Origin: Salinigranum marinum
Lineage (GTDB): Archaea; Halobacteriota; Halobacteria; Halobacteriales; Haloferacaceae
DNA length: 64,000 nucleotides
Reading direction: 5' to 3'
NCBI RefSeq assembly: GCF_024228675.1
Contig: NZ_CP100461.1
Span: 3,469,398 to 3,533,397 of the forward strand
A program made the position numbers and the translations under genes. The notes under the pieces were generated by a model, which ran no database searches, was not told where the DNA came from, and saw only the letters and a list, made by a program, of their open reading frames with translations. Below, piece by piece: positions 27,172-44,224 of the stretch; the stretch's first letter is position 1; every line of letters begins with the position of its first letter.

Positions 27172-28371
27172 ACTGCTAGATTTTTCTCCTCAGCGCACCT
27201 CTTAGGAGTATCAGACGTGTTCTGAAGTCCATCATGCCACGAACCAAACAGTACGTTGTCGATCTGTCTGCCGATGAACGAGCTGAACTCGAAGCGATGC
27301 TAGCGGCTGGAACGCACAAAACACGCGTTCTCACGCGTGCACGGTGTCTCTTGCACGCCGATGACGGCTTGACTGACAAGCAGGTCAGTCAAGCCGTCGG
27401 CTGTCACCCCGGCACGGTTGGACGCATTCGGAAACGGTACGTGGAGGACGGCCTTGCGGCGATTAATCGCCGCGAGGCCGACCGTGTCTACGAGCGTAAA
27501 CTCGATGGGCGCGAAGAAGCTCACCTCATCGCATTGGCCTGTAGCGACCCACCAGAAGGACGCTCTCGCTGGTCGCTTCACCTTCTAGCCGAACACCTCG
27601 TTGCCCTCAACGAGATCGACGTCGAGTCGATCTCTCACGAAACCGTCCGACAGGTGCTAAAAAAACACGGCTACACCCTCACCGATCAGAATCGTGGGTG
27701 ATCAAACCCGAACACAACGCCGCGTTTGTCTGTCGGATGGAAGACCTCCTCGACCTCTACCACGAACCGTACGACCCAGTTCGTCCTGTCGTCTGCTTCG
27801 ACGAGAGTAACAAAGCGCTTCACAAGCACGTCCGTGACCCGCTCCCGGCCCGTCCGGGAGCGGTCGCTCGGTACGACTACACCTACGAACGAAACGGCAC
27901 ACGGAACCTCTTCATGATGAGTGAACCGCTCGTTGGCTGGCGACACGTCGAGGTGACAAAACGCCGTCGCAAGCAAGAATTCGTCCAGCAGATGCAGACA
28001 CTTTCCGATGAGCACTACCCGGATGCCGAGTGCATCCGGGTGGTGCTCGACAACCTCGATACGCACAAAGCCTACGCGTTCTACGAATTTCTCCCACCGA
28101 AGGAAGCACGCCGTCTGCTTGGGAAGCTAGAGTTCCATTTCACGCCCAAACACGGTAGCTGGCTCAACATGGCCGAAATAGAGTTCAGCGCACTCACTAC
28201 CGAATGCCTCGATCGTCGTATTCCCGACGCAGCGACCCTCCGTGCGGAGGTAGCTGCGTGGGAGCGCACTCGAAATGAGGATAACTCGGCCATCGACTGG
28301 CAGTTCACCACCGAGGACGCACGTATCAAACTCCGTCAGCTATATCCAACAAATCACGCTTGAAGCGGCAC
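27154..28371 (+). mobile_element. IS630-family insertion sequence, 1218 bp, TA target duplication
   Basis: The terminal inverted repeats begin GTGCCGCTTCA at the left (27154) and, as reverse complement, at the right (TGAAGCGGCAC, 28361-28371), with partial matching further in. The dinucleotide TA flanks both ends (27152-27153 and 28372-28373), the hallmark of IS630/Tc1-mariner insertion. One transposase in two frames fills it. The transposase stop codon (TGA at 28361) is formed by the right inverted repeat itself. It interrupts a regulator gene whose reading frame is regained exactly when the element plus one TA is removed. Confidence 0.95.
27234..28363 (+). CDS. IS630-family transposase, in two overlapping frames
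   Basis: The first frame (27234-27701, 155 aa) has the N-terminal helix-turn-helix DNA-binding region (GLTDKQVSQAVGCHPGTVGRIRKRYVEDG) and a winged segment. The second frame (27698-28363, 221 aa, -1 relative) holds the DDE catalytic core: D in VVCFDESNK, D in VVLDNLDTHK and E in HGSWLNMAEIEF. The two overlap by 4 nt at CGTGGGTGATC. A -1 slip there would join them, as in IS630 members with programmed frameshifting. Alternatively a base was lost from an ancestral CGTTGGGTGATC (Arg-Trp-Val-Ile). Whether a full transposase is made is thus open. Confidence 0.9.
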
Positions 28372-29159: not shown

Positions 29160-30512
29160 TCAGATCGCAGACCGGCCCGACGGAGCCAGCGCGCCGAGTG
29201 CGACTCGTCGGCGCTCATCGGCGTCGTCCGACGGGAAGGCGGCGTCGACGGTTTCGATTCTGACGATGGCGTCGAAGCCTTGCTCGTCTCTGATCGTGGT
29301 CCGGAGTCCCTCTGCCAGCCCCTCCGGCGGGAGGCCGTCGCGTGTATCGACGACGACGGTCACCTCGACCATCTGGTTGAACAGTACCGATCTGAGCGGC
29401 GAGACGTCCACGTCCGCCTCGACGAGCCGTGCGCCGCGGTACTCCTCGTCGGCGAGGGTGCGCTCGACCTCCTCGTGCAGGTTCGACTCGAACTCCGCGT
29501 CGACGAGCGAGAGCGCGCTGGTGAGGACGAGCACGAGGCTCAACAGCACGAGGGAGACGGCGATGACGCCGACGAGTCTGATCGTCGTCTTCCGTGCCGT
29601 TCCCACCCGGTCTGCGACGACCGGGCGGTAGCCACTGACCCACAGGAGCCCGAGCGCGACGAGGTTCACGGCGAGGACGTTCACGAGCAGGAGCGTCCCG
29701 GCCTCGAACACCGCGAGCGGCTCGTTCCACGCGACCCCGATGCCGACCGTAGCCGCCGGCGGGACGAGCGCCACGGCGATCATCGCGCCGACGAGCACCG
29801 ACGACACGCCCCGGGTGAGGCTGAAGACGGCGGCGACGCCGGCCCCGATGGCGAGGACGAGCGAGAGCACGTTCGGCGCGAGTCGCTCTTGCACCTGCGG
29901 GACGCTCAGTGGGTCGAACCCGGGCGGGACGAGGAGCGTCTCCTTGAGGAGCACCGAAAAGGCGAGTGCGCTCACGATGGCGAGCGCCACGCCGAACAGC
30001 TGCAAGCCGACGCCCCGCCGGAACAGTTTCGGTTCGTACAGGACGCTCCCGACGGCGGCGGAGATCGCGGGTCCCATGACGGGTGCGATGATCATCGCGC
30101 CGATGATGACGGCCGCGGAGTTCGACAGGAGGCCCGTCGTCGCGACGACGGCGCTCACGATCGTCATCACGACGAACGTCGAGAGCGCGGGGGCCATCTC
30201 CTCGGCCCGCGCGATGAGCTCCGGACGGGAGAGCGCGAGGGCCGTGTAGTTCGTCCGGAGGCGCTCGAAGTTCTTCGAGACGACCGTCTCCGCGGAGAGC
30301 ACGACGGTGAAGCCGTCTTCTTCGACGCCCGCGTCACGGAGTCGGCTCAACACCGGCTCCACCGCGCTCGTCGGCAGCGGAAACGAGACGTGTGCCTCGT
30401 ACTCCGCTCTGCCGACCTCTTCACTGAGTGCGTAGTCGATCCCCGCCTCGTCCAACGCGTGGAGGACCGCTTCACGACGTCCGCGCGGAATAAGCACCTG
30501 TACTAGACGCAT
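29160..30512 (-). CDS. DUF389 (TIGR00341) family membrane protein
   Basis: A 450-aa protein. The first about 85 residues form a ferredoxin-like cytosolic domain (MRLVQVLIPRGRREAVLHALDEAGIDY). The central DUF389 membrane domain follows, with its conserved SNSAAVIIGAMIIAPVMGPAISAAVGSVLY and GVSSVLVGAMIAVALVPPAATVGIGVAW, about 7-8 helices. A C-terminal soluble part after the last helix (SALSLVDAEFESNLHEEVE...) is outward or cytosolic. Function in archaea is unknown. The ATG at 30512 starts right at the conserved domain; the upstream open frame is an artefact. First host-like gene after the island. Confidence 0.88.
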   Translation of the reverse strand: MRLVQVLIPRGRREAVLHALDEAGIDYALSEEVGRAEYEAHVSFPLPTSAVEPVLSRLRDAGVEEDGFTVVLSAETVVSKNFERLRTNYTALALSRPELIARAEEMAPALSTFVVMTIVSAVVATTGLLSNSAAVIIGAMIIAPVMGPAISAAVGSVLYEPKLFRRGVGLQLFGVALAIVSALAFSVLLKETLLVPPGFDPLSVPQVQERLAPNVLSLVLAIGAGVAAVFSLTRGVSSVLVGAMIAVALVPPAATVGIGVAWNEPLAVFEAGTLLLVNVLAVNLVALGLLWVSGYRPVVADRVGTARKTTIRLVGVIAVSLVLLSLVLVLTSALSLVDAEFESNLHEEVERTLADEEYRGARLVEADVDVSPLRSVLFNQMVEVTVVVDTRDGLPPEGLAEGLRTTIRDEQGFDAIVRIETVDAAFPSDDADERRRVALGALAPSGRSAI

Positions 30513-30701: not shown

Positions 30702-31456
30702 TCAGCTCCCGTCCGGACCGTCTACCGGCACCGTCCGCGGCTCGCTCCCGACGAGCCAGAGGATGTAGTGCTGGTCGGCGTCGCTCGGGTTCACGTCGCG
30801 GTGGACGACGGCCGGCGAGAGGTGGAACCACTCGCCCGTCCCGACGAGTTCCCGCTCGCTCGGTCCAATCCCCCACTGCATGTACCCCTCGCCCGCGGCG
30901 ACGTAGCCGAAGACGTGGTTGTCGCCGTGGTGGTGCCAACTCGACTCGACTCGACCGCGCCGGCGGCGTGACCCCGCACCTGCTGGACCGGACTGTCGGG
31001 GAAGGGGGTCAGCCGGGTGACGTTCTGCAGTGTTCCCGCCGAGGAGAGGTCGTCGTCGCCGGCGACGCGCGGCCGCACTGACGGTCGTCTCCGGGGACGA
31101 GCCGCGTCGACGACGAGCGGCCCCTCGCCGGCGAACCCGACGAGCGCGGCCTGCGCGTCGTCGGTCGCGACCTCGCGGTGGACCACTCCCGGAGGGACGA
31201 CGAAGAACTCCCCCGGGCCAACGTCGACGGACTCCCCGGGGTCGGGACCGAACTCGATCCGTCCGCGTCCGTCGAGGACGACGCCGTAGGCGGTCCGTTC
31301 GCCGTGGTGGTGCCACGACGACGTCCCGGCGAGCCGGGTCCGACAGAGCGCGAAGCCGTCGCTCTCGACCACGGTCTCGACCGTCGGCCGCGAGGTTCCC
31401 GCGACCGCGCGCACGTCCGCTGGTCCGATCACCACCACGTCGGAGTTCCCGGTCAT
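30702..31456 (-). pseudogene. Bicupin protein gene with a frameshift at a pentanucleotide repeat
   Basis: Two cupin domains are encoded in two frames. The first (from ATG 31456) contains SSWHHHGERTAYGVVLDGRGRIEFG and VVPPGVVHREV. The second, in the frame ending at 30702, repeats the pattern as SSWHHHGDNHVFGYVAAGEGYMQWG and LSPAVVHRDV. The break is at 30938-30956, where the coding strand reads three tandem GTCGA units; with two units the frames join as ...GAVESSWHHHG. The unbroken product would be about 249 aa with two His-rich metal sites. The first-frame reading continues into an Arg/Ser/Thr-rich tail to 30791, so the second domain is lost. Function of the intact protein is unknown. Confidence 0.8.
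30938..30956 (-). repeat. Pentanucleotide tract (GTCGA)3 at the bicupin frameshift
   Basis: On the coding strand, GTCGA occurs three times in tandem followed by GTTGG. Loss of one 5-bp unit restores the bicupin frame. Slipped-strand replication would readily change the count. Confidence 0.75.
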
Positions 31457-31546: not shown

Positions 31547-32008
31547 TTACTCGCGGTCGTCGTCGCTGTCGCCGTCGCCGTTACCGTTGATGTTCACCGT
31601 CAGGACGGGGACGGGGGCGTCGGCGACGACCCGTGCCGAGACGCTCCCGACCATGTTCTGTCGGTAGTTCGAGCCGTGGGTTCCCATGGTGACGATGTCG
31701 ATCCCGGCCTCCTCGACGTAGGCGATGATCTCTTCCGCGGGGCTCCCGCGACGGAGGACGGCCGTGGTCTCGACGTCGCCCGCCGCGAGTCGGTTGAGCG
31801 CGGCGGCGGTCGCCTCGTCGCCCTCGCCTTCGAGTTCGCCGACCACGTCGTCGACGAGGTCGGGCGCGAGCGTCAGGAAGGCGCGGTCGTCGACCACGTA
31901 GAGGACGTGGACCGTCGCGTCGTGGCGTCGGGCGAGATCGAGCGTGTGGGCGTAGACGTCGTCCATCGACTCGGTCCCGTCCGTCGGAAGCAGGATATCG
32001 TCGTACAT
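31547..32008 (-). CDS. Universal stress protein (UspA family)
   Basis: A 153-aa UspA-fold protein: MYDDILLPTDGTES at the start, VLYVVDDRAF, and the ATP-binding signature GTHGSNYRQNMVGSVSARVVADAPVPVLTV (G-x2-G-x9-G-S). It has an acidic C-terminal tail (NINGNGDGDSDDD). The ATG at 32008 is preferred to the one at 32035 because the family starts at M-x-D-D-I-L. It likely acts as a cytosolic nucleotide-binding stress factor. Confidence 0.9.
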   Translation of the reverse strand: MYDDILLPTDGTESMDDVYAHTLDLARRHDATVHVLYVVDDRAFLTLAPDLVDDVVGELEGEGDEATAAALNRLAAGDVETTAVLRRGSPAEEIIAYVEEAGIDIVTMGTHGSNYRQNMVGSVSARVVADAPVPVLTVNINGNGDGDSDDDRE

Positions 32009-32120
32009 CGGGCTCGTTCGGAGAGAGTACGTCACGGGGCAAGAACGCTGTCATCCGTTCTCACCGCCCGGGAAGCGCCCGGGGGAGCACCTATGTCGCT
32101 CGACTCCGTCGGAGGAGACG

Positions 32121-43825: not shown

Positions 43826-44224
43826 AGGGGACGATCTTCGAGTGATCCATCGGGGGCCACCCACCTATAACCGGGAAACCGTTGGCCGCTGTTCAGACGC
43901 TTCACGTCGGTTCGTCGCTGGATCGGAGAACCGTTCGGACAGTTTATCGACGACACAGACAGTTCGAGACCGTTCATGGCGCTTTCAAAAGCCGTTTCTT
44001 CGAGAACGTCGAATCCGACCGAGTCGACCGATGCCGAGCGACGTGGATCGGTGCTGACCGAGTCGACCGATGCCGACCGATGCCGAGCGACGTAGACCGA
44101 TGCTGACCGAGTCGACCGACGTGGATCGGTGTCGACCGATGCCGAGCGACGTGGACCGATACCGAGGCAGTACTCGAACACGCCTCGTCGAAAGCGTCTC
44201 GGTCCTGGCCGCCGACCGCCACCC
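43826..44224. repeat. Intergenic tandem-repeat array upstream of the deaminase gene
   Basis: From 44017 to 44166 the word GACCGAGTCGACCGATGCCG and derivatives are repeated in three units starting at 44017 (39 nt), 44056 (49 nt) and 44105 (about 60 nt). The core CCGATGCCGAGCGACGTGGA recurs with small changes, and ACCGAT/ATCGGT half-sites make local dyads. There is no coding potential of its own; frames through it give Arg/Asp/Ser-rich nonsense. The left part (43826-44016) has no notable feature beyond a short TTTATCGA element. Confidence 0.8.

Follow-up and report, generated by a model that had tools for sequence, protein, structure and literature searches.

A bicupin gene on the minus strand (31456-30702) of the window, the whole 64-kb stretch of DNA analysed here, has its two halves in different reading frames, with a short GTCGA repeat between them. 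Such a locus may represent a gene that is switched on and off by repeat slippage, a gene that is rescued during translation, a gene that has recently been lost, or an error in the assembly. The question is which of these accounts best fits the gene, its relatives and its genomic setting.

Frame structure of the bicupin gene

Direct reading of the strand placed the frame break between the two cupin halves, at the pentamer tract GTCGAGTCGAGTCGAGT (30955-30939, minus strand). The plus strand reads ACTCGACTCGACTCGAC at 30939-30955, which corresponds to three GTCGA units followed by GT on the minus strand. The features of the locus are as follows:

30702-31456, minus strand: bicupin gene with a 249-aa product if it had two repeat units, frameshifted in the assembly (frame reading and 14 intact orthologues)
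30956-31456, minus strand: first cupin half and linker in frame A, domain intact (WHHHGERTAYG ... VVPPGVVH; Pfam Cupin_2)
30939-30955, minus strand: pentamer tract GTCGAGTCGAGTCGAGT, 3.4 units, one more than in relatives (15-mer unique in the genome)
30791-30943, minus strand: continuation of frame A past the break, some 50 out-of-frame residues up to a stop (frame reading)
30702-30938, minus strand: second cupin half (WHHHGDNHVFGY ... VVHRDVNP ... WLVGSEPRTV), cut off from the start codon, the more conserved half in the family (Pfam and relatives)
31547-32035, minus strand: UspA-type (universal stress protein) gene, upstream of the bicupin gene (Pfam Usp, E=2e-31)

Frame A starts with the ATG at 31456, runs through an intact first Cupin_2 domain, reads V-E-S-S in the tract and is then out of frame. 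Past the tract, where the junction sequence is GTCGAGTCGAGTCGAGTTGG, it continues as RVGTTTATTTSS... for some 50 foreign residues until a stop at 30791-30793. The frame of the second domain, WHHHGDNHVFGYVAAGEGYMQWG...VVHRDVNPSDADQHYILWLVGSEPRTV, ends at 30702. When 5 nt were removed, one continuous 249-aa protein without a stop was obtained. In the assembly, no single open reading frame spans the two domains (break at 30939-30955). Both Cupin_2 domains are present, one per frame in the window and as two stretches in the orthologues. The first half matched Pfam Cupin_2 above the gathering score (E=7e-11), and the second reached 25.5 bits, just under the gathering score of 27.2 bits. The first-pass annotation had described two cupin halves in different frames, split by three GTCGA units, and was correct in both sequence and coordinates. 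A second frameshift in the linker (ARPRRRPSVRP stretch) was considered and is not claimed, since every relative shows a variable linker and the frames recovered on its two sides agree.

Beyond the UspA-type gene lie a further gene and then an ArsA/Get3-type ATPase, and the gene order of this neighbourhood is kept in the congeneric genome G002 and not in Halegenticoccus soli. At 27698-28363, approximately 2.3 kb from the bicupin gene, an ORF carries an IS630-like transposase domain (DDE_3).

Orthologues and the ancestral frame

An intact orthologue was found in G002 (locus L004), which reads GTC GAG TCG AAC TGG at the tract; the corresponding window sequence is GTCGAGTCGAGTCGAGTTGG. Once 5 nt are taken out, the window protein can be aligned with this orthologue over its full length, at 59% identity before the tract and 75% after it. 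Further relatives were drawn from the family and, by an alignment-based scan, from named genomes, and include Halegenticoccus soli, Halogeometricum limi, Halohasta litorea and three Haladaptatus species. At the DNA level, with duplicates removed and three loci of that scan (L050, L057, L058) set aside, one open frame runs through the break site in all 14 distinct relative genomes. Their unit count is 0-2, as dictated by the codons, and three or more units occur in none of the 14; relatives with V-V-S-E, V-A-S-D or A-A-A-G at the tract position have no repeat. The relatives thus back the earlier claim that the gene is off through one extra GTCGA and would encode a full bicupin if it had two units. 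What could be taken for two overlapping genes is a single frameshifted bicupin.

The window gene shares two Cupin_2 domains and a conserved TPFPD linker region with the haloarchaeal Cupin_2 (PF07883) bicupins, which are intact in Halegenticoccus soli (L048), Halogeometricum limi (L049) and Haladaptatus (L055, L056, L059). The WHHHGDN motif and VHRD in the second domain and the WL-G-EP end are also common to them. Unlike these genes, the window copy carries a +5 frameshift just ahead of the histidine motif of the second domain. Across the relatives, the W-H-H-H-x-D-N and H-R-D residues of the second domain are invariant, and the first-domain histidines are replaced in several. Structure prediction for the H. 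soli orthologue gave a bicupin (mean pLDDT 86, pTM 0.86), with oxalate decarboxylase and quercetin dioxygenase bicupins as the nearest folds (TM 0.68-0.72 to the query, E about 1e-15 to 1e-13). The likeness to OxdC and to quercetin 2,3-dioxygenase of the YxaG type is one of predicted fold; the protein is shorter, and the first-domain histidines are not conserved in the relatives. The structural matches share 12-16% identity, so that no activity can be assigned.

The gene is present in two of the four genus members and absent from the other two, is patchy in the family, and also occurs on Haladaptatus plasmids. The plasmid location and the absence from half of the genus members indicate an accessory gene, and the gene is dispensable in the group. 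No second intact copy of the bicupin was found when the genome was searched by pattern, which leaves nothing to compensate for the broken gene. The locus thereby combines the features of a frameshift pseudogene, with intact homologues, an inactivating indel and no intact second copy.

The downstream frame is open and conserved, as would be the case if programmed -1 frameshifting yielded a full-length protein from the three-unit allele, or if internal initiation yielded a separate second cupin. Neither mechanism is favoured by the sequence around the break. No slippery X-XXY-YYZ heptamer lies at the junction or near the tract (the only in-frame one is 262 nt upstream), no ATG, GTG or TTG was seen in the second frame at the tract when read by eye, and the split is not conserved, being found at the break site in none of the relatives examined. 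We consider translational rescue the least probable of all the readings weighed here.

Origin of the repeat tract

The 17-bp tract is the sole pentamer run of at least 15 bp within the 64-kb window. Order-2 and order-4 Markov models gave expectations of 0.25-0.27 runs of at least 15 bp and 0.03-0.08 runs of at least 17 bp for the window (0.27 and 0.08, respectively, with the order-4 model). Pentamer runs were also counted in 380 kb of the same genome sampled outside the window, where one run of at least 15 bp (16 bp long) was found, with model expectations of 1.35 runs of at least 15 bp and 0.05 of at least 17 bp. No period-7 or period-8 runs with three copies were found in the 380-kb sample. 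The 4.9-Mb genome contains a single copy of the 15-mer GTCGAGTCGAGTCGA, and only two other places in it carry the two-unit-plus string GTCGAGTCGAGT. The two-unit ancestral state corresponds to the codons GTC-GAG-TCG-AGT (V-E-S-S), and the tract is unusual in the way expected if one duplication was added onto a chance two-unit codon sequence. As judged from sequence comparison, the repeat arises incidentally from the codons, and the relatives have not conserved it as such. Elsewhere in the window, a 10-bp unit (CCGACCGATG) recurs in about 15 imperfect copies at 44015-44165, nested in a 49-bp higher-order repeat.

The first-pass annotation had raised possible phase variation. GTCGA slippage would then toggle the bicupin on (two or five units) and off (three or four units). 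Three properties would suit such a switch: a unit length other than a multiple of three, a position within the coding region, and constraint kept on both halves. The first two of these properties recall the SSR contingency loci of Neisseria and Campylobacter, in which a non-triplet tandem repeat in the coding region changes the frame, but the window tract differs from these in having too few units, no conservation and no demonstrated length polymorphism. Its three full units fall below the published pentamer cut-offs for phase-variable tracts, which are at least four units in a Neisseria survey (PMC5084427) and at least five in a Campylobacter survey (PMC6321876). The tract is neither kept nor expanded in any examined relative, no array of similar tracts was found in the 380-kb sample (a single pentamer run reaching 15 bp), and the product is a predicted small cupin and not a known surface or modification gene. 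The haloarchaea studied so far are polyploid, equalise their genome copies by gene conversion and have a low mutation rate (PMC4056108); if the same holds for this organism, a switch would be slowed. A search of the open-access literature gave no example of pentamer-driven or repeat-based switching in haloarchaea.

Together with the codon origin of the repeat, the low unit count, the lack of expansion in relatives and the lack of an array in the 380-kb sample make phase variation highly improbable. Less probable again is a slow slippage switch in a polyploid cell, in which a mixture of two- and three-unit alleles would be maintained and the share of active copies would set the dose of the metal-binding bicupin. 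The alternatives that had been raised beside switching, simple loss or assembly error, fit the data better.

Age of the lesion and the preferred account

In an NG86 comparison with G002, dN was 0.34 before the tract and 0.16 after it, and dS was 0.74 and 0.48, respectively. When three outgroups were used to assign amino-acid changes, the ratio between the window lineage and the sister lineage was 17:17 before the tract and 8:7 after it. Relaxed selection after the break was seen neither in dN/dS nor in the lineage counts, and the lesion is therefore either very young or an assembly error; a switching allele, too, would be expected to lack additional decay. At a single site, the window has a Val (WLVG) where Thr is invariant in the aligned relatives, which gives a hint of decay.

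If the assembly were in error, the true genome would have two units and an intact bicupin. This would agree with a second half that is still open, well conserved and evolving no faster than in the sister species, and with a gene that is without any other lesion. Against this, no frame errors were found in the other window genes compared with G002: relative to approximately 100 kb of G002, no window gene other than the bicupin has its parts in different frames, about 25 shared genes are otherwise collinear, and the other multi-frame rows are paralogues or antisense overlaps. The genome is assembled in 4 contigs, and its completeness of 99.87% speaks against an assembly full of indels. Assembly errors are usually of the homopolymer type, unlike a clean 5-bp tandem duplication, and this was also counted against an assembly error. 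The sole split gene and the high completeness favour a real mutation over a noisy assembly, and leave room for an isolated error. We regard an assembly or consensus error as unlikely, and rank it second in our best account of the locus, after a null allele.

In G002, a DUF389 homologue (G002:C1, about 3498050-3499134, in L043) is split between two frames near GGCGTCGCGGGGCGCTGTCCG, and the window copy (29163-30509) is open. This split looks like an ordinary frameshift or error, and indicates that single frame lesions are not rare in the comparison between the window and G002.

Accordingly, we hypothesize that the locus is probably a recent null allele of an accessory bicupin gene, formed by 5-bp tandem duplication or slippage. 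The starting point would have been the chance two-unit stretch in the codons, onto which a biologically real 5-bp duplication was recently added, most likely by replication slippage. With the resulting +5 shift, translation would leave the frame just before the conserved WHHHGDN metal-site motif of the second cupin. The predicted outcome is a 221-aa product in which a single cupin is followed by a foreign tail; the function of the conserved second half would be lost, and the first half alone is presumably inactive. Such a null allele is an ordinary event.

Should the tract prove polymorphic within a clone, it would exemplify switching by repeats in haloarchaea. For annotation, the locus is to be read as one frameshifted bicupin, and the bicupin family as dispensable.
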